A stretch of DNA of 13,217 nucleotides from Candidatus Zhuqueibacterota bacterium (lineage in GTDB: Bacteria > BS750m-G25), in contig JADHWK010000060.1 of assembly GCA_016783505.1 (NCBI GenBank), positions 1-13,217 of the forward strand. The letters are read 5' to 3'. The notes beneath the pieces are model-generated. The model worked only from the letters and a program-made list of their open reading frames with translations, did not search any database and was not told the origin of the DNA. This document shows positions 3,214 through 11,335 of the stretch, piece by piece (positions within the stretch are counted from its first letter, which is position 1; each line of letters begins with the position of its first letter). The position numbers and the translations under genes were made by a program.

Positions 3214-4722
3214 TTATCTTCTCGACTTAACCGGAGGTTTACTTTTTCCTGATGGCGGTTTCTTGTCCGTCTTGGGGGATGGTTTTTCAGCAGGCTTTTC
3301 CACCGGCTTCGGCGTGATCTTGCGCTTGATCTCCTCCCTTTTTGGCTTGGGCTTATACACTACCCCCTTGTTTTTAGCAGTGGATTTAATGGTCTCCCGC
3401 AGGATGAGGTCCAGGTTATTCTCTTTGGCAGTTCCCCGCTTTTTCGTCAAACCACTCAGTTTGTCCCGGGAGGAACGGACGTCGGTCTCCTCCACTACCC
3501 GGGTAGAAGGCTTGCTGGCGGGGTGTTTCTCCCCGGAAAAGGCCTTCGCCTTACTCAGAAAGAAATCATCGGAGGTCTTTTCGGCAACCCTATCTTCCTC
3601 AGCCGCAATGTAAACCCTATCACCCTCATAGTAGACGGGCTTCTCTTTCCCAGCATCGGTCAGGTAGACTTCACGGTAGGTCAGGAAGGCGAAGTTGCCG
3701 TTGGTCTTTCCCGAAACATACTTGTAAACATCCACACCCTCCTGGGAAATACCGCTGCAGGCGATGGTATGGATGCTGATGTGACGTTTGTTCGCCTCTT
3801 CCATCTCCTTACGATAATCATAATCGTCCCGGTAGTCCATATGGGGTGGGGCGTCCCCGATTAAAAAGGCGATCTTGCTCACCCCAGGCCTGAGATCCCA
3901 ATCCATAGACCAGATGGCCTCATGGAGGGCCTCGTTAACACTTTCCGGGTCATCCCCCCCACCACTGGCAGCGATCCCGTTCAGGTGGTTGATAAAAGCC
4001 TGAACATCCTCAGTTAGGCGAAATTTTTTAACGATATAAGGGTCGCCACGGTCCTTGTAGTCCACCATGCCGTAGCGGACCACCGGGGGCGGGATTCCCT
4101 GGCGGATGTCGTCCACCATCGTCCGAATGCGCTCCTTCACGGCGCTGATCTCGTCCCCCATGGAGCCGGTGGAATCGAGGATGAACACCACATCTATGTG
4201 GGGGGATTGGGGTGAAGTCCCGGCTTCCGTAATCTCCACCCCCATAAGGTCGGCGATCAGGCGGGTGGTCAGTTGATCGACCATATCAAAGATCCCCTCA
4301 ATCTTGCTCCCAAAGACCTTCTCAGCATGAATAATGGACCCGCTTTTTACCTCCAGAATGTGGGCATCTAACCGGACCTTCTTACCCCCGGTGGTTAGAC
4401 TGCCCAAGATCAACAGATCAGCGCCGATCATCTCCCCTACCGAAAGGGCCTGATTGTCCTCAATCAGCCCCGTCTGTCCCAGCTCCAGTTCCTCCAGGGC
4501 TTTCCCCAGCCTCTCCCGCTCCACCACGTTGATCCCCGATACACCGGAGATGTCGGTGATGATCATCTCGGCGATCCCTTCCCCTAAATAGTCCAGCTCA
4601 TCGGTAGCATGATTAATCTTGAAATTGAGAACCGCAACATTAGTCCCCCCCGCAAAGCCGATATTCAGGCGCAAGAGGAATAGCAGAGTCAGGGGAATAA
4701 CCGCCCAAAATCTTGGTTTCAT
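3214..4722 (-). CDS. Secreted CsgG/TolB-like plus von Willebrand factor A protein with basic proline-rich tail
   Basis: A 502-residue exported protein. The Sec signal peptide is residues 1-24 (MKPRFWAVIPLTLLFLLRLN...). Residues 27-165 form a CsgG/FlgO-type domain: VAVLNF start, LGEGIAEMIITDIS, VVERERLGKALEELELGQTG, GADLLILGSL. Residues 176-350 form a VWA domain with a complete MIDAS motif DSTGS (183-187), a GGGDDPE loop (254-260) and IGDAPPH (288-294). The last 150 residues are Lys/Pro-rich and low complexity. I chose ATG 4722 over the in-frame TTG at 4734 because the TTG overlaps the GGAG ribosome binding site, which sits 6 nt before the ATG. Role: probably a periplasmic or surface protein with metal-dependent ligand binding. 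No partner operon gene is adjacent downstream. Confidence 0.85.
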   Translation of the reverse strand: MKPRFWAVIPLTLLFLLRLNIGFAGGTNVAVLNFKINHATDELDYLGEGIAEMIITDISGVSGINVVERERLGKALEELELGQTGLIEDNQALSVGEMIGADLLILGSLTTGGKKVRLDAHILEVKSGSIIHAEKVFGSKIEGIFDMVDQLTTRLIADLMGVEITEAGTSPQSPHIDVVFILDSTGSMGDEISAVKERIRTMVDDIRQGIPPPVVRYGMVDYKDRGDPYIVKKFRLTEDVQAFINHLNGIAASGGGDDPESVNEALHEAIWSMDWDLRPGVSKIAFLIGDAPPHMDYRDDYDYRKEMEEANKRHISIHTIACSGISQEGVDVYKYVSGKTNGNFAFLTYREVYLTDAGKEKPVYYEGDRVYIAAEEDRVAEKTSDDFFLSKAKAFSGEKHPASKPSTRVVEETDVRSSRDKLSGLTKKRGTAKENNLDLILRETIKSTAKNKGVVYKPKPKREEIKRKITPKPVEKPAEKPSPKTDKKPPSGKSKPPVKSRR

Positions 4723-4765
4723 TTTGGACTCCAATTTTATTCTTTTATCCTATTTGCAACACTCT

Positions 4766-4793: not shown

Positions 4794-4807
4794 GAGGGGT
4801 TTAAATA

Positions 4808-4851
4808 AAATCCTCATTTTATCTAATTCACCATCATTCAGGGACCTAACG
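4808..4851. repeat. Direct repeat, left copy: displaced 3' end of the PP-loop ATPase gene
   Basis: Forty-four bases match 10303-10346 at 38 positions (86%) in the same orientation and without gaps. Four of the six differences are transitions. Read on the minus strand in the gene's frame it gives VRSLNDGELDKMRI, against VRPLDDDKLDKMRI in the intact gene. Here the stop is lost, and a 4-nt gap is needed to extend the alignment further. The right edge coincides with the final attC core site GTTAGGT (4850-4844). Confidence 0.85.
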
Positions 4852-4970
4852 GACTTGCGCTTCAGCAGCGAGTCTCCGATACATCTGTTCTAATCCTTTA
4901 TCTCGTTTACCAATTGTCTTCATTGCTGGAACGGGCCGTCATTCCCGTCTGCTGCAGGCGCTTGTTATGC
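4844..4970 (-). repeat. attC site of the HEPN-like cassette (127 bp)
   Basis: Minus strand: R'' is GCATAAC (4970-4964) and R' is GTTAGGT (4850-4844). Inner arms AAGCGCCTGCAGCAG and CTGCTGAAGCGC pair with small bulges. It starts 7 nt after the stop codon of the 4977-5966 gene. It is the last attC in the array, and the sequence directly after its core is the duplicated 3' end of the PP-loop gene. Confidence 0.8.
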
Positions 4971-4976
4971 ATAATA

Positions 4977-5966
4977 TTATTTAAGAATTTCTATTAGAGA
5001 TTCAGCGGATGATAAGGCTTTGTTGGCTTGTCCTTCCCCAATATCAATTAAGTTCTGATGAACCGCCTTGTTTCTCAGTGTAATCGATTCTAGCATATTA
5101 TCGTAGACCATTTTATGCGTAGAATTCTCCTCATCAAGTAACTGAATTACTTCCACAGACATCAGGTAATGCAGATCGACCTTACTGGATAGTTCATTAA
5201 TTTTAGTCTTTGATACACCGCGAGTTTCCCAGGCATTCTTCACAGAATTGATGATAACAGGTTCAATGGCTGTGATTACGTCAATTAGACAATTACGGTA
5301 CTGTCCAAGTTCATACCAATATCTGGCAGAATTCATCGAAAGTCGTGTTGAGTTCAAATACTTATCATCAGCAAGTATGAGACGAAAATCGTTATGTGCT
5401 TTCAAGGGCAATGCATACTTCGCTTTTCTCATATCCAAATTCATATTTAGTCTGAACTTTTTTTCGTCGATGTTAGCCAGCCTCAGTACGCTTCTAAAGG
5501 GGAGATCTCTGAGTGTAGGCTTATAATATTCTCCAGAACAAATTCGATATTTCTCAATGAATTCATTTATCACACGCTTTATTCGTTTATAGAGTCTTTT
5601 CTCCTTTTTCTCCTGTTCATCTTTATCATCAAGAAATAATATTTCGTTCGAGGACCAAAAAATCTCTAGAATCGTTTTTCTAAAATGATCAGTATCATCA
5701 CGAATATACTCCACATTTCTCCCAATAAAATTCTGAAGAAAATCGGAATGATCTCCTGAAAATGACGGAGTTAGGAGACCCAATGATGTTGGCTTACGAT
5801 TTGGATCGTCTTCGTAATAATCAATATTGATGCTACCCTCTGCGTTTTGTGTCCAATAATTATATGTGACGATAGAATATTCCTTACCGTCTACTCTTAT
5901 GCGGTATTCATCATTTTTTAAACGAAGAGAAAAAGGAAGATTAGTTGTCAGTGAATATCTGATCAT
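4977..5966 (-). CDS. Cassette-borne protein with a HEPN-like C-terminal motif
   Basis: A 329-residue soluble protein not assignable to a named family. The N-terminal half is beta-rich and acidic, and a strongly charged helical stretch follows (DEQEKKEKRLYKRIKR, about residues 115-130). The C-terminal third is helical, with a YRNCLIDVITAIEPVI helix and then a second helix ending SITLRNKAVHQN. R298-N299...H303 fits the Rx4-6H signature of HEPN domains, which are often metal-independent RNases in defence and toxin systems. The layout (long variable N-terminus, C-terminal HEPN) resembles ApeA-like HEPN proteins, an inference from motif and order only. The ATG has AAGGA 9 nt upstream. It fills one cassette; its 27-nt leader resembles that of the next cassette. 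Confidence 0.75.
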   Translation of the reverse strand: MIRYSLTTNLPFSLRLKNDEYRIRVDGKEYSIVTYNYWTQNAEGSINIDYYEDDPNRKPTSLGLLTPSFSGDHSDFLQNFIGRNVEYIRDDTDHFRKTILEIFWSSNEILFLDDKDEQEKKEKRLYKRIKRVINEFIEKYRICSGEYYKPTLRDLPFRSVLRLANIDEKKFRLNMNLDMRKAKYALPLKAHNDFRLILADDKYLNSTRLSMNSARYWYELGQYRNCLIDVITAIEPVIINSVKNAWETRGVSKTKINELSSKVDLHYLMSVEVIQLLDEENSTHKMVYDNMLESITLRNKAVHQNLIDIGEGQANKALSSAESLIEILK

Positions 5967-5987
5967 CTGATTAAATCCTTTTATGCA

Positions 5988-6114
5988 TAATAACGCCCGG
6001 CATCACCAGTGGGCAGGGGAAACGGGACTTAGTCAATGGTAATTAAATACCAAACTTGGAAAAAGTCTTTAAACGCCACAACCCTGCCCATCTGGTGCAT
6101 GGCGTTGTTATGCC
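5988..6114 (-). repeat. attC site of the unknown-protein cassette (127 bp), variant core
   Basis: Minus strand: R'' GCATAAC (6114-6108) is followed by AACGCC and CACCAGATGGGCAGGG. The opposite arm is CCCTGCCCACTGGTG then GGGCGTTATTATGC. The arms pair over more than 20 positions. The core reads GTTATTA (5994-5988) instead of GTTRRRY. Compared with the GTTATGC core at 7452 it looks like a 3-bp insertion (GTT-ATT-ATGC). Confidence 0.8.
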
Positions 6115-6150
6115 ATCTTAATATCCCATATCGCAGAAACGTTTATAGAA

Positions 6151-7428
6151 TCACAGTATTGGCACATAGTCAGATTCAGCGTCAGTAATGAGTTGAAAAA
6201 CATGTTGCAATGCAACATCACTCTTAGAAGGATTCTCAAAAAGAAGACTGAGCAATAAGCTTGCACTGCTGGTCGCTAAACCCCCAATAAGGGAGGATAT
6301 AGGTTCTCCGGTAGTTGCGAAAGTTCCAATGACCCCACCACCAAAACTTAGGCCAGCTGTTTTCACTTTTGACCCCAATGAGTGCTTTGATATCCTTTCC
6401 TTAAGATGGAAGGAGAGTTCTGGTATTTCTTTTTTTGCGATGCGCGAAAAAGAGTTTGGACTTCCAATGTCCACAGTATCCAATATCTTTTCTAACTCAG
6501 ACCGCCACATGAAGAATGTATCGTTATCTTTATGTAAATCAGTTACTTCTCTCGCAGATAAATCGACTATGGAGGGTAAACGACAAGCTGACAGAACAAG
6601 ATCTTGCCGGACACCAAATTTGAAAGGCTTGAATGCACGTCCTGCTACCAATCCTTTTGCGACATACAATGCTGCACCAAATAGACCTTGAAGCACAATT
6701 TCGTAACCCTGTTGATCACAATAGAGCAGTCTTGCATTAAAAAAACGCCTATTAAGATTATCCTTACCCCTTGCAATATCAAGAAGGCCACAAAATGCTT
6801 TAGCCTGTTCAACGGGTAGATTTTCGAGAACAATCTTCTCTGCTTCATCAAGTACGTGTAAGTGATTATCGTCAAGTTCACAGAGAGCGTCACATTCAGG
6901 AGTACGAGTTATTGGGACGCTATAGCCGCTCGGAAATGTCTCAATAAGGCCGGTATTTAACAAAGGACGCATTCGAGCCCAAAAACGAAGAGCATGTTTA
7001 AGAACGGTGTCACCCAATCTTCTTGAGGCTTGTGCGGAAGTAAGTTTCAAGGTGTTCGCCCATGCTGGAGCTTCATAAACTGATGATGTTAAAGGTTCAG
7101 AAACCGCTACCGCATCATAATACAAAAGATACTTAAATATAGCGTTACCGACTTCATGTAATGGCTTGTAGTAGTTTTGACCGCCTGCAAATTCATGAGA
7201 AAGCCAAGCACTCATATCACGTGTATTAAACATTTCAAGAAATGCTACTCTGCGATCATTATCTGAAGAAGTACTCTCATATTGTTCACCACTGCTTAAA
7301 ATCAGGTCTCGAATATCGTCTATTTGGTTTGTGGAGACCTTATCAAATGTAATGTTTGGCGAGATTTTCTGATCGACTATTCTCTCTATCTCGCACAATT
7401 GCTTTTCCCACCAACATTTTTGTTTCAT
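6151..7428 (-). CDS. Cassette-borne uncharacterised protein with C-terminal Gly-rich hydrophobic segment
   Basis: A 425-residue protein that I do not recognise. Most of it is a soluble alpha-helical region with several Trp and Cys and no nucleotide-binding or nuclease motif that I can see. Near the C-terminus, residues 357-397 form a Gly/Ala/Ser-rich hydrophobic stretch (GLSFGGGVIGTFATTG, then SSLIGGLATSSASLLLSLLF) able to span or insert into a membrane as a hairpin. A 28-residue tail follows. Such a segment at the end of a soluble protein is seen in membrane-acting effectors, but nothing here proves that role. The ATG has AAGGA 9 nt upstream and lies 23 nt after the cassette start. It is framed by attC sites at 7446-7521 and 5988-6114. 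Confidence 0.75.
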   Translation of the reverse strand: MKQKCWWEKQLCEIERIVDQKISPNITFDKVSTNQIDDIRDLILSSGEQYESTSSDNDRRVAFLEMFNTRDMSAWLSHEFAGGQNYYKPLHEVGNAIFKYLLYYDAVAVSEPLTSSVYEAPAWANTLKLTSAQASRRLGDTVLKHALRFWARMRPLLNTGLIETFPSGYSVPITRTPECDALCELDDNHLHVLDEAEKIVLENLPVEQAKAFCGLLDIARGKDNLNRRFFNARLLYCDQQGYEIVLQGLFGAALYVAKGLVAGRAFKPFKFGVRQDLVLSACRLPSIVDLSAREVTDLHKDNDTFFMWRSELEKILDTVDIGSPNSFSRIAKKEIPELSFHLKERISKHSLGSKVKTAGLSFGGGVIGTFATTGEPISSLIGGLATSSASLLLSLLFENPSKSDVALQHVFQLITDAESDYVPIL

Positions 7429-7445
7429 TGATATTAATCCTTAAG

Positions 7446-7521
7446 GCATAACGTGCCGCATAACCGGCTGGTAAAGTAGCGCAGCGGATTTACCAGTCCG
7501 AGTTAATGCGGTTGGTTAGGT
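7446..7521 (-). repeat. attC site of the NTPase/Mrr cassette (76 bp)
   Basis: Minus strand: R'' ACCTAAC (7521-7515) and R' GTTATGC (7452-7446). The inner arms pair as ACTGGTAAA with TTTACCAG, extended by AACCGCATTAA with GGTTATGCGG, around a 13-nt terminal loop. The stop codon of the cassette gene (TAA 7518-7516) lies inside R''. This is the shortest and most regular attC here. Confidence 0.88.
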
Positions 7522-8649
7522 TTTGAGATCGTTTATCCATTGATTAAGAGAAATGTAATCCCTCAATTGCATTTGGTGTTTCACTTCTTGTTGGAATTCT
7601 TTAGCGCCTCTAGTAAAGCTTGAAGTTGTAGCTATGATGCCAGCAGTAGCTTTTTCTAATTGGACAATGCCATATAAAGATCTTACAACATCAACTTGGA
7701 CCTTGTTCGTCTTTGCGTACCTTTTACATTCCACAAGGAAAAGAAATCGACCAATCTCATCAGAACGAGCAGCGTATATATCAACACCACCATCTTTGGC
7801 TGGAGGTGTGAGGGTGATCTCATAACCAAGCTTATTAAGGAGTTCAGCCACCAGTCGTTCAAAATCCCTTGGGCTCAATGTGTACATTAGCTCTGGATTT
7901 TTCGTTACTTCACGGTAAAGCCTCTCCTCGAGATACTCAGACACCTCTACAATTGGTTTTGGCAGGGCAATAGATGGATCATATGGAACACCATCAGGGC
8001 CTATAATCCCTGGCTCTCTAAAAGGTTGAAGGTCTCTTATTAGCTCATTCCATGAAAGCAGACCTTCTCGAATCGTCGATGCACCCAACGATAGAAATAA
8101 AGGATGCCCTTTTACGTAATTGAAATATTTTTTTGCGGAATCTTCATTAATCAAGGCCAACCTTTTTCTCAAGAGCTCGTCCCATTCTGTATGAGAAAAA
8201 CCCTCAAGACGAACATTTACACTACCTAGCATTTGAACAGGGAGCTGAGTTTGAGAAACAATTATACAGTTTAAATTTATGTTAGCTGAAAGTTCATGAT
8301 TTAGTTGGTCAAATGCTTTTGGCTTTAGAAAGTGGGCCTCTTCTAAAACAAGCAAAGAGCGTTTTGTAGTGTCGAGTTTCCTTGTTTTGGGTAGATCATC
8401 TAAGACCGCACCCCAATGGGCATATGTAACCTCGATGCCCCCTGGAAAATCAGTTTCGTGCATACGCCAAAATTGATGAACAAGCGAGGTTTTGCCAATA
8501 CCAACTCTTCCGGTCACAATCACAACCTGAATGGTATCACTGAGCAGAGATTTTTCAAGGATACCAAGCTCTTTTGCCCTACCCACAAAAGTACTTTCAC
8601 TGGCTGGCACTGCCTCTGTTGCTGTAAGGTGTAAACGTTCAAATTGCAT
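7516..8649 (-). CDS. Cassette-borne STAND-type P-loop NTPase fused to an Mrr-family restriction endonuclease
   Basis: A 377-residue two-domain protein. Residues 20-210 form a P-loop NTPase: FVGR box (21-24), Walker A TGRVGIGKTS (46-55), Walker B LLVLEEAH (99-106), and a GHP motif (181-183) typical of STAND/NB-ARC-like ATPases. Residues 256-360 match the Mrr catalytic domain: SPRDFERLVAELL, LGYEI, DGGVD (286-290), ECKRY (308-311) and an ATTSSFTRGAKEF segment. Asp290 with Glu308-x-Lys310 gives the PD-(D/E)xK active site. It is likely a nuclease gated by nucleotide-dependent sensing, hence a defence protein, although no target can be read from sequence. Leader is only 16 nt with no strong Shine-Dalgarno sequence; the core's own TTAGG may substitute. 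Confidence 0.9.
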   Translation of the reverse strand: MQFERLHLTATEAVPASESTFVGRAKELGILEKSLLSDTIQVVIVTGRVGIGKTSLVHQFWRMHETDFPGGIEVTYAHWGAVLDDLPKTRKLDTTKRSLLVLEEAHFLKPKAFDQLNHELSANINLNCIIVSQTQLPVQMLGSVNVRLEGFSHTEWDELLRKRLALINEDSAKKYFNYVKGHPLFLSLGASTIREGLLSWNELIRDLQPFREPGIIGPDGVPYDPSIALPKPIVEVSEYLEERLYREVTKNPELMYTLSPRDFERLVAELLNKLGYEITLTPPAKDGGVDIYAARSDEIGRFLFLVECKRYAKTNKVQVDVVRSLYGIVQLEKATAGIIATTSSFTRGAKEFQQEVKHQMQLRDYISLNQWINDLKT

Positions 8650-8659
8650 TGGTTTTCAA

Positions 8660-8789
8660 ACCTAACGATTGCATAACCTGCGCGAAAGATTAAGGTCACG
8701 GAGCGTTGCACAACCACAGAGCTTCGAAGAATGCACCGAGCTCTGGAATCACGTTACAGCTTTCGCGTCAGGTTGATGCGATGTTAGGT
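8660..8789 (-). repeat. attC site of the nuclease-like cassette (130 bp)
   Basis: Minus strand: R'' ACCTAAC (8789-8783) and R' GTTAGGT (8666-8660) are exact complements. The arms continue ATCGCATCAACCTGACGCGAAAG against CTTTCGCGCAGGTTATGCAATC, nearly fully paired apart from single extrahelical bases. A long variable terminal structure follows. This is the textbook attC of the window and the strongest evidence for the array. Confidence 0.93.
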
Positions 8790-8844
8790 ACTCGTTATAG
8801 GATGCATTTTCTGAAAATTAATCCCAGCTTCATTCAATAAAGTA

Positions 8845-9846
8845 TCACAACGCAACCATTTTAAAATCTACAATAGCTTTTTTGAAAGGTTCAATTAATT
8901 CGAATGGCAATGTTTTGTATGCCTGTCGATTGACCCAGAAAATGGGTTCTGCGCTCCATTTTTCTGCAAATAAAATCGCTGAGAGATTTTCTAACAATTG
9001 ATGGTTAGTTTCATCCTCCAGACAATTATTGACTACGTGTTGGAAATCGGAATCACTTCGAGCGTCATGCGTACTGTACAAAACAACTACGTTGGTTTCA
9101 CCCTCTATAAGTTGTTCAGTCTTGGTCTTCAATTTTGTCCAAATCTCCTTAAAGCCATAGGGAATCTCTGAAAGTACAGTCCGGTTTTGTTTGAAGAACA
9201 AGTCGTTGTACAATTCCTCATCTGTTCGCAATCGTGTAAATTCTATATAGATATATTCGTTTTCAAAGTCTAGTTGATAATCAGGCCCTTTAGTTTTCAC
9301 CGTCGGATAAAAAGTTAGTTTTCGAATCCCTTCGATTTGTCTCATAAGCCCAACCGCAAACTTCCCTTCAAAAAATAAATCCTCGAATTGTAAAGAATCA
9401 CCAACATTAGCACGAAGCTTCTTTTGAAAAAGGTGTAGGTTGTTTACTTCCAATCCTTCGAGCTGCTCGGTTAATTGTCTCAGGCCATGTTCATGAGCAA
9501 TGACGAAAATTGCTTTCTGTCTAAGATTTGCTGGTAAATCACAAAATTTACTTAAGAGTTTGATATTGGATTTAATCTCTGTTAGACTTGAAACGAATTC
9601 TTTATAATTTGATTTGGATTGAAGTTCATCGATCAATATTTCCTGTTTTTGAGAATCACATAAAAGAGAGCCTAGCCATATCTCTGGTTTTTCTGAATCA
9701 AAGTCAGTCAAGATTGAACGGACATCCGAAAAATTTCGGTACAATTGTAAATTGTTAAGAAGGATAAATAGGTTGCGAAGTTCATCTCCCTTTGATTTTT
9801 TGATTGATTTCTTGAATCTTCCAAATGTTACATTATGGTGATCCAT
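8845..9846 (-). CDS. Cassette-borne uncharacterised protein with a nuclease-like core
   Basis: A 333-residue soluble protein of unknown family. The first 180 residues are helical and charged. Residues 183-206 then read VKTKGPDYQLDFENEY followed by IYIEFTRLR. This is a 'G-P-D ... hydrophobic strand with E-x' layout (Asp189, Glu202) as in PD-(D/E)xK nucleases, but the expected Lys after Glu202 is Thr204, so activity is doubtful. After a helical segment comes a strand VVVLYSTHDARSDSDFQHVV, and the C-terminus has FWVNRQAYKTLPFEL. The ATG has AAGGAG about 11 nt upstream, rather far. It is the first clear cassette, starting 48 nt after the core at 9895 and ending 55 nt before its attC. Confidence 0.75.
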   Translation of the reverse strand: MDHHNVTFGRFKKSIKKSKGDELRNLFILLNNLQLYRNFSDVRSILTDFDSEKPEIWLGSLLCDSQKQEILIDELQSKSNYKEFVSSLTEIKSNIKLLSKFCDLPANLRQKAIFVIAHEHGLRQLTEQLEGLEVNNLHLFQKKLRANVGDSLQFEDLFFEGKFAVGLMRQIEGIRKLTFYPTVKTKGPDYQLDFENEYIYIEFTRLRTDEELYNDLFFKQNRTVLSEIPYGFKEIWTKLKTKTEQLIEGETNVVVLYSTHDARSDSDFQHVVNNCLEDETNHQLLENLSAILFAEKWSAEPIFWVNRQAYKTLPFELIEPFKKAIVDFKMVAL

Positions 9847-9888
9847 TCAAATCTATTCTCCTTAAAGAATCAATCCATAAGTTATCGT

Positions 9889-9895
9889 ACCTAAC
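9889..9895 (-). other. Integron core site GTTAGGT opening the array
   Basis: Minus-strand GTTAGGT (9895-9889) stands 43 nt before the ATG of the first cassette gene and fits the 1R consensus GTTRRRY. I found no matching RYYYAAC partner upstream, so it may be the edge of an attI-like or degenerate attC site. Confidence 0.6.
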
Positions 9896-10302
9896 CTAGG
9901 TTTCGGTGTACTAATACAAAACGCAAACACGGCAAATCTGGCCGTATAAACTCAGATAAGAATTACCAGAAATGAGCAATTAATTAACTATAAAATAAAT
10001 AGCTAAGCTAAGGCGGTCTCTACACCTTCTCAAGTTTATACGGCTTAAAAATGGCATATAAATCCCCAAGATTTTCTTTCGAAATCAATTATTAATCAGG
10101 CTGATTCTATTTATTATACGTCAAAATGAGGCATGTAAACCTAAGAGAAATGTTTGTGATAATATAATTCAAGATATATAAAAAAATTGAATAGACTATA
10201 ATTTCACATTGTAAAGGCTTTAATTGTCCCGCAGAGGCCGGAGCCCCTACGTGACAGTAAAATTAGTTTGCTTGATCTACTTTCTTATATCAAGAAAAAT
10301 TT
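9896..10302. other. Gene-free stretch between the PP-loop gene and the first cassette
   Basis: About 400 bp with no plausible ORF. It contains a 12-bp inverted repeat (9941-9952 and 10033-10044, core GCCGTATAAAC) with roughly 80 nt between arms. It also holds an imperfect 13-bp hairpin (arms 10226-10238 and 10243-10255, 10 of 13 pairs) without a T-tract. Bounded by GTTAGG cores at 10345 and 9895, it has the size of a non-coding cassette, but I could not build a proper attC from the inverted repeat. Confidence 0.5.
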
Positions 10303-11335
10303 AAATCCTCATTTTGTCTAATTTATCATCATCAAGGGGCCTAACGTTAAATCGTTCACTCCCTTCCGGGCCATCCCCTTTTACCAAAATTGAGGACTGG
10401 TCCTTATCTTTACTGTAGCGGGCGGCGATAGAGGCTGCTGTTTTCTTTAATTCGTCATTGACGGGGCCAAAAAGCAATACCAGTCCCCCTGGATGTTCGA
10501 CTGTCTGAAAAGCCCAACAGTTGTCCTGATACCTTTCCAAGAACAGGTTTTCCTTTTCATTCCGACCCACTATCACCTTTGCCGCCGGGCTCAGCCGAAA
10601 ATGTCGTCCCACAGCCAAAAGATAAACCTCCTCCTGGGTAAGCACTTTTGCCTCCCGGTGATCCAGAAGGTCCCGGAACCGGGCGGCGTAGTGCTCATCG
10701 GTGAGGAAGCAGCACCCTCCCGCCGGCTGGGGGAAATCGGTAAGGCCAAATTTTTGGGCCAGTTCGATCTGTCTCTTACGGGATCGTCCCTGTATGTCGT
10801 AGAGTCCATCTGGGTCAATCCAGCCTTCCTTCTCCGGAATCGTAGGCCTAAGCAATTTAGCCGACAGGGGCCGCAACAGATATCCCCTAAGACCGGCTTC
10901 CCTTTCGATGGTGTTCATCACGTCCCGGCGCTGTGACATGGGCCGCTGGCCCAGCACCTCACCGGTAAAGACAAAGGAGGCTCCCTCAAGCTCCATTCGC
11001 CTTTTCGCCTCCCGTAACATGTGAATGCGGCAGTCAATGCAGGGGTTCATCTGCGAGCCGTAGCCGTGCCGGGGATGGGTCACCATCTTCAGGTAGTCTT
11101 CTGAGATGTCCACGATGTCCACTTCAACGCCCAGGTCCCTTCCGGCCCTCAAGGCCTCGTGTCGAACGGGCTGGTCCTTTTGTCCGGCAAAAACCTTCTT
11201 CAACCCGACGATACAGAAACCGGTATAGAAGTGGACACCTTTAACATCAACACCCTGATTGAGGAGGACCCTGGCCGCCAGGGTGCTGTCAAGACCCCCG
11301 GACAAAAGACCGATGGCTTTGATTTTTTTAGCCAA
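10301..11335 (-). CDS. PP-loop (N-type) ATP pyrophosphatase, ThiI/2-thiouridylase-like
   Basis: A 344-residue cytoplasmic enzyme. PP-loop SGGLDS is residues 12-17, followed by GVHFYTGFC (Cys41), MNPCIDCR (Cys99/Cys102), FTGEVLGQRPMSQ (123-135) and PAGGCCFLTDE (205-214). This is the layout of tRNA-thiolation PP-loop enzymes, which adenylate a substrate and transfer sulfur. The likely role is tRNA or cofactor thiolation; the substrate cannot be told. The start is TTG, overlapping the stop of the cNMP/FHA gene by 8 nt. No ATG exists before codon 84, and the PP-loop must be included. The codons for V331-R332 form a GTTAGGC integron core, and the 44 bp from there to the stop are duplicated at 4808-4851. 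Confidence 0.85.
   Translation of the reverse strand: MAKKIKAIGLLSGGLDSTLAARVLLNQGVDVKGVHFYTGFCIVGLKKVFAGQKDQPVRHEALRAGRDLGVEVDIVDISEDYLKMVTHPRHGYGSQMNPCIDCRIHMLREAKRRMELEGASFVFTGEVLGQRPMSQRRDVMNTIEREAGLRGYLLRPLSAKLLRPTIPEKEGWIDPDGLYDIQGRSRKRQIELAQKFGLTDFPQPAGGCCFLTDEHYAARFRDLLDHREAKVLTQEEVYLLAVGRHFRLSPAAKVIVGRNEKENLFLERYQDNCWAFQTVEHPGGLVLLFGPVNDELKKTAASIAARYSKDKDQSSILVKGDGPEGSERFNVRPLDDDKLDKMRI
10303..10346. repeat. Direct repeat, right copy: intact 3' end of the PP-loop gene beginning at a GTTAGGC core
   Basis: This is the coding end of the PP-loop gene (VRPLDDDKLDKMRI and stop). GTTAGGC occupies 10345-10339 on the minus strand and satisfies the integron 1R consensus. Right of 10346 the sequence has no similarity to the flank of the left copy, which is attC. 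On the other side, weaker similarity continues for about 20 bp past the stop. Confidence 0.85.

Follow-up and report, generated by a model that had tools for sequence, protein, structure and literature searches.

For many integron cassettes, no phenotype is known. Among the nucleases that resemble the protein described here, AspBHI and MspJI are modification-dependent restriction enzymes, and the characterized enzymes of this type have a DNA-reading domain at the N-terminal position. The archaeal ATPase_2-DUF234 proteins combine an NTPase of the STAND-AAA+ region with a C-terminal PD-(D/E)xK domain. Mrr-like effectors have been described in conflict systems that depend on NTP and that make use of STAND NTPases as well (PMC7159879). 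In the STAND proteins the specific winged helix, as seen in PH0952, comprises 77 residues, and arm and repeat sensor domains are present "in most cases" (PMC6468293). Integrons are known to store anti-phage cassettes, among them shrunken forms of type II and type IV restriction genes (PMC12409362); the integron-borne anti-phage cassettes of Darracq 2025, Kieffer 2025 and Getz 2025 are cited here as reviewed in that article.

The NTPase-Mrr gene analyzed in this work lies on a contig of 13,217 bp, which was taken whole and is called the window below, from a 60%-complete, 2.5-Mb MAG. Like the integron anti-phage cassettes, it is a single gene with an attC and a promoterless leader, set in an array with other cassettes of unknown function; it differs from them in protein architecture, in its MAG host, in the lack of an integrase on the contig, and in being known from sequence alone. 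Integron-borne defence genes are already published, and NTPase-Mrr is a variant with a different protein architecture. No description of this compact architecture was found in the mainly open-access literature searched, and an earlier report may exist.

All main genes of the window are on the minus strand. A low-GC stretch (0.39 in the cassette region vs 0.50-0.54 in the thiI-like, FHA and VWA genes next to it) separates a ThiI-like gene (10301-11335) from a VWA-domain gene (3214-4734). It contains four ORFs, with an attC-like hairpin after each of them. The NTPase-Mrr ORF is the second of the four in transcription order (Table 1). The proteins of the other three had no match among the families searched (Pfam, NCBIfam, PADLOC), and an Rfam scan of the window found nothing. 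By eye, the motif RNKAVH near the C-terminus of the protein from the last cassette resembles the HEPN R-x4-H RNase motif.

Table 1. Coordinates of the cassette array and of the repeats on its two sides
Feature	Position	Strand	Basis
NTPase-Mrr integron cassette, 1214 nt	7452..8665	-	crossovers read from sequence; attC on both sides
NTPase-Mrr nuclease gene, ATG start, 377 aa	7516..8649	-	ORF list, Pfam, homologue alignment
attC of NTPase-Mrr cassette (ACCTAAC...GTTATGC)	7446..7521	-	held-out attC-model match and sequence
attC of upstream cassette; its R' box sets the 5' boundary of the NTPase-Mrr cassette	8660..8789	-	stem scan and attC model
Upstream cassette, ORF 8845-9846 (333 aa, no family found)	8666..9894	-	
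Next cassette, ORF 6151-7428 (425 aa, no family found), attC 5987-6113	5994..7451	-	
Last cassette, ORF 4977-5966 (329 aa, no family found), attC 4844-4970	4850..5993	-	
3' end of ThiI-like gene, begins CGTTAGG; repeat copy 1	10298..10346	-	
Far copy of ThiI-like gene tail, begins at crossover of last attC	4803..4851	-	

The cassette crossovers fall on the minus strand between 8666 and 8665 (G^TTAGGT) and between 7452 and 7451 (G^TTATGC), leaving a leader of 16 nt upstream of the ATG. At the other end, the TAA stop (7518-7516) is located within the R'' box ACCTAAC (7515-7521), read as the codons ACC TAA, and in an excised circle the R' box GTTAGGT would pair perfectly with this R''. The attC of the upstream cassette scored 18.5 in the stem scan, in which two sites of the window reached 15 against 0.1 per strand in shuffles. 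An alignment of three sites from the array of the window with six sites of the loci in Cyanobium and Pseudoalteromonas described below had 39 cells changed on both sides of a pair, compared with 14.9 in shuffles, and the signal collapsed in slid controls. The covariance model R1, built with the attC of the NTPase-Mrr cassette left out, recovered this site with 35.6 bits (E 9e-6 genome-wide). Across the whole genome the attC model gave 22 candidate sites, weaker ones counted, and in three non-integron loci it gave none. The held-out match, the pair covariation and the clean non-integron loci together make the attC identity secure, and the NTPase-Mrr gene is a true integron cassette with attC crossovers at both ends, the orientation of the array, and the R/L-box hairpin. 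The original prediction of an integron cassette whose gene stops inside its own attC is thus upheld, with the coordinates right. Its description of the cassette as self-contained is too strong, given the short leader and no coding-strand promoter signal above chance. These two properties make transcription from upstream in the array likely, and expression of the gene probably depends on such transcription, from array promoters upstream of it. No integron integrase was found on the 13.2-kb contig and none intact above the cut-off in the genome, so that the array is CALIN-like on present data; as the genome is incomplete, an intact integrase may sit in its missing part. Located inside an array of this kind, the gene may be silent.

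The protein consists of a P-loop NTPase with a helical lid (residues ~19-208), a linker (209-256) and an Mrr_cat domain (257-372). The motifs named in the original prediction are exactly placed in the translated ORF, namely Walker A TGRVGIGKTS at 46-55 with K53, Walker B LLVLEEAH at 99-106 and GHP at 181-183, as is the length of 377 residues; of the nuclease core, D290 is correct and the E-x-K motif, given as E308-x-K310, was numbered one too high and is E307-C308-K309. The fusion of an Mrr nuclease to an NTPase also stands. The nuclease matches Pfam Mrr_cat (PF04471) far beyond chance (100.8 bits, E 6.5e-29), and the NTPase half matches AAA_22, AAA_16 and ATPase_2 at levels that range from just under the Pfam curated cut-offs to some distance under them (23.9-26.9 bits, E 6e-6 to 4e-5). 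Neither Pfam, NCBIfam nor PADLOC holds a model of the full-length protein. The residues G47, G50, G52, K53, T54, G181, D290, E307 and K309 are invariant in five full-length homologues, and H182-P183 is kept in four of the five, with GNA in Cyanobium. Conservation of the catalytic residues in such distant homologues indicates that the gene is under selection. Identity between homologues is 25-32% in the NTPase-lid part vs 55-71% in the nuclease.

The AlphaFold model of the full-length protein, obtained with a four-sequence alignment, is usable only at ~23-208; the Mrr half has pLDDT under 50 and the domain arrangement is not given. Since the poor folding of the Mrr half is due to the small alignment, this domain was folded alone (pLDDT 73.5, pTM 0.68), which yielded an alpha-beta3-alpha-beta PD-(D/E)xK core similar to AF1548 (Z 11.4), AspBHI (Z 9.9) and MspJI (Z 9.1). 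These matches come from the fold search; a search of solved structures with the Mrr sequence profile gave none. The D and E-x-K core together with the predicted fold assign the domain to Mrr_cat. NTPase-Mrr thereby shares its C-terminal nuclease fold and D...E-x-K core with the MspJI-AspBHI nucleases (PF04471), and has an N-terminal NTPase in place of their DNA-reading domain. It differs from ATPase_2-DUF234 in nuclease family, and its match to ATPase_2 is weak (E 4e-5).

The NTPase half was compared in particular with the STAND ATPases (PH0952, APAF1, Avs; PMC6468293), which it resembles in having a P-loop, an acidic Walker B, a helical domain with GxP and an effector at one end. The nucleotide-binding domain has Walker A and B, and the helical domain has GxP in the form of GHP. 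The best solved match by profile is the STAND protein PH0952 (E 1.4e-12, vs 1.7e-7 for RFC), in an alignment that spans the P-loop and the GHP motif. The modeled region ~23-208, in which a helical lid follows the P-loop domain, matches the AAA+ proteins RFC, Cdc6 and p97 with Z about 14-15; these scores are as high as those of STAND proteins, so that the fold alone cannot separate STAND from AAA+. Between lid and nuclease are about 34-48 residues, predicted as mostly linker in a low-confidence part of the model, which is less than the ~77 of a STAND winged helix and leaves no room for this domain; none is seen in the AlphaFold model, whose confidence in the linker is low. Nor are there residues left in a protein of this length for an arm or repeat sensor domain, although these are not strictly defining, being present only in most STAND proteins. 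Of the original description as a STAND-like sensor plus nuclease, the kinship of the NTPase with STAND proteins stands, but the terms STAND and sensor are overstated. The protein has a nucleotide-binding and a helical domain of STAND type and, as judged from the models, is devoid of winged helix, arm and repeat sensor.

Full-length homologues identified by tblastn and profile searches have 37-42% identity and are rare and scattered: Bradyrhizobium plasmids, a Phycisphaerae MAG, Cyanobium sp. Morenito 9A2 and Pseudoalteromonas sp. B95. The Bradyrhizobium plasmid "restriction endonuclease" WP_247790105.1 is 39.8% identical over 94% of the protein; it and its relatives are alike over the full length and differ from the cassette in the window by the lack of an attC array and by an LmuB-like neighbor. 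The Cyanobium and Pseudoalteromonas homologues are integron cassettes with attC on both sides and the stop within R''. The integron integrase is intact in the Cyanobium genome and decayed in Pseudoalteromonas, where one fragment and the homologue are ~2 kb apart. The seed genome alone matched in each of three samples, which comprised 369 Gammaproteobacteria, 386 Cyanobacteria and 392 genomes of the Phycisphaerae phylum, and a domain-wide sample gave no match in 385 genomes besides the seed; as scoring was limited to the five best candidates of each genome, these counts are a lower bound. Scans with the single sequence returned no relative from the genome and viral collections. A profile scan returned three relatives from genomes and, from viruses, one distant match to Mrr only, later scans of the viral collection returned no relative, and phage records had Mrr-domain matches only, with 25-31% coverage. 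The homologue count is drawn from pattern-limited scans and comprises five sequences; within this scope, the homologues make up a rare, scattered and mobile family. Proteins from Acinetobacter and Priestia were not counted as having the same architecture, their tblastn matches spanning the Mrr domain only. The C-terminal Thr shared by the three cassette forms was considered as a mark of common cassette descent and dropped, because any R'' box read as RYY-TAA would give it.

Some of these homologues have defence genes as neighbors. In Cyanobium, a PD-T4-3 cassette (E 6.5e-39) is immediately upstream and a PDC-M14B-like cassette immediately downstream, with a toxin-antitoxin-like pair farther upstream. 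In Bradyrhizobium, where the homologue is outside any attC array, a Lamassu LmuB-like ATPase gene precedes it by ~85 nt. The Phycisphaerae locus has no defence neighbor and no attC. This mobile and defence-rich company, made up of integron arrays, plasmids and defence neighbors, answers the objection that homologues might occur only in housekeeping contexts.

Taken as a prediction from sequence, NTPase-Mrr is probably a DNA endonuclease that consists of one protein, is gated by NTP and is spread in the form of an integron cassette; most likely it defends the host against phage or other DNA that enters the cell. We hold this interpretation with moderate confidence. It is supported by the cassette structure, the intact Mrr-type PD-(D/E)xK site, the intact Walker A and the acidic Walker B, as well as by the recurrence of relatives in arrays and plasmids of unrelated bacteria and by their defence neighbors. 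The low GC of the cassette region, the patchy distribution, the SfiI-type restriction-modification cassette in a decayed integron of the same genome and the published anti-phage cassettes of integrons (PMC12409362) also speak for it. The occurrence of architectural relatives in cassette arrays of unrelated bacteria, one of them beside an anti-phage gene, suggests that it is probably a portable defence gene; the targeting of phage or foreign DNA is what we infer from this. In the proposed mechanism, the NTPase-lid module would keep the C-terminal nuclease off in the resting state. A trigger from phage or foreign DNA would lead to nucleotide exchange and assembly of multiple copies, and the assembly would pair the Mrr domains and permit DNA cleavage. 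The trigger would probably be recognized by the NTPase-lid part itself, as no other sensor domain is present and this part diverges much faster than the nuclease. A conserved nuclease joined to a fast-changing NTPase-lid that keeps its nucleotide-binding residues suggests an NTP switch that would also make the recognition contacts. From the sequence, neither a DNA specificity nor the kind of trigger (phage protein, DNA structure or modified base) is readable.

The nuclease half bears on a rather unlikely alternative, that of a modification-dependent (type IV) restriction enzyme without an infection sensor, in which Mrr would cut foreign-modified DNA and the NTPase would help to bind DNA or translocate on it as in McrBC. 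Such an enzyme is suggested by the modification-dependent AspBHI and MspJI among the nearest solved nuclease folds, by the PADLOC mREase_IV models, which match the Mrr part (46.5 bits), by the similarity of the NTPase fold to the AAA+ DNA machines RFC and Cdc6, and by the shrunken type IV genes reported in integrons (PMC12409362). However, Pfam revealed neither an SRA or winged-helix domain nor any other known reader of modified bases, and the NTPase profile prefers PH0952 over RFC. The PH0952 similarity and the GxP motif would also suit a full STAND (NLR-like) sensor, whose ligand-binding domain detects a phage protein and sets off abortive DNA degradation. Avs4 and plant NLRs are among the Foldseek matches of the NTPase part, and several homologues have weak Pfam matches to nSTAND1, nSTAND3 and NACHT. 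We nevertheless regard this sensor as improbable, as the winged helix, arm and repeat sensor do not fit into the protein and AAA+ clamp loaders rank equally high in the fold comparison.

A role outside defence, either as a repair or recombination nuclease or as a selfish or neutral hitchhiking cassette, appears very improbable in view of the very patchy distribution, the mobile contexts, the defence neighbors and the catalytic residues kept in five distant homologues. On its side are the many integron cassettes, indeed most, whose function is not known, the possibility that the NTPase-Mrr cassette is unexpressed, and the resolvases and the repair enzyme EndoMS among the Mrr-fold relatives.

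Under the preferred reading of a cassette-borne, NTP-gated nuclease, NTPase-Mrr is a single-gene candidate for a minimal defence nuclease of this kind, and the idea of integrons as a store of defence genes, published mainly for Vibrio and mobile integrons, would extend to the lineage of the window and to Cyanobium. An NTPase that recognizes the trigger, if true, would show how little protein suffices for sensing plus killing. More tentatively, the homologues may form a rare but widespread family of compact NTPase-Mrr defence proteins, mainly cassette-borne across phyla, in which the NTPase-lid is both switch and recognizer. If so, they would be immune proteins without a separate sensor domain, and their trigger may differ from the ones to which the known STAND and type IV systems respond.

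Several minor observations concern the surroundings of the array and the rest of the genome. A 49-bp tail of the ThiI-like gene is found on both sides of the array with 84% identity and in the same frame (VRPLDDDKLDKMRI and VRSLNDGELDKMRI); both copies begin at CGTTAGG, the crossover sequence, and the pair brackets the array. This duplication looks like the result of an IntI-type event in which a circle, itself already equipped with a related gene tail, was inserted at a secondary site of the gene, so that the ThiI-like gene remains whole. Between the end of this gene and the first cassette, ~450 nt without an ORF (9895-10344) contain an inverted repeat (CCGTATAAACT / AGTTTATACGG) and are possibly an attI or promoter region. 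Outside the array, an AT-rich block (1-2120, GC 0.33) contains a protein of the "sporadically distributed" family TIGR04255 (1346-2113, E 6e-24).

The integrase search of the genome found relics only. One of them, on contig C44 (2911-3190), belongs to a decayed integron with a cassette array; it has model residues 1-55 fused to 262-304, the middle lost and the frame broken. This array contains an SfiI-family restriction enzyme (E 7.1e-88) and its methyltransferase, together at 7127-8850, with the methyltransferase stop within the next attC, and a DUF2130 gene. About 18 more attC candidates, mostly single and each usually right after an ORF, are spread over 14 contigs of the genome (C11, C13, C17, C30, C35, C39, C44, C53, C59, C66, C72, C73, C81 and C85), and the sequence of one on C53 is close to that of the NTPase-Mrr attC. 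On contig C72, a 374-nt direct repeat (92%) starts from CGTTAGG after the attC at 33637-33698 and is found again ~1.5 kb upstream, a second case of the tail-repeat pattern that brackets the array of the window.
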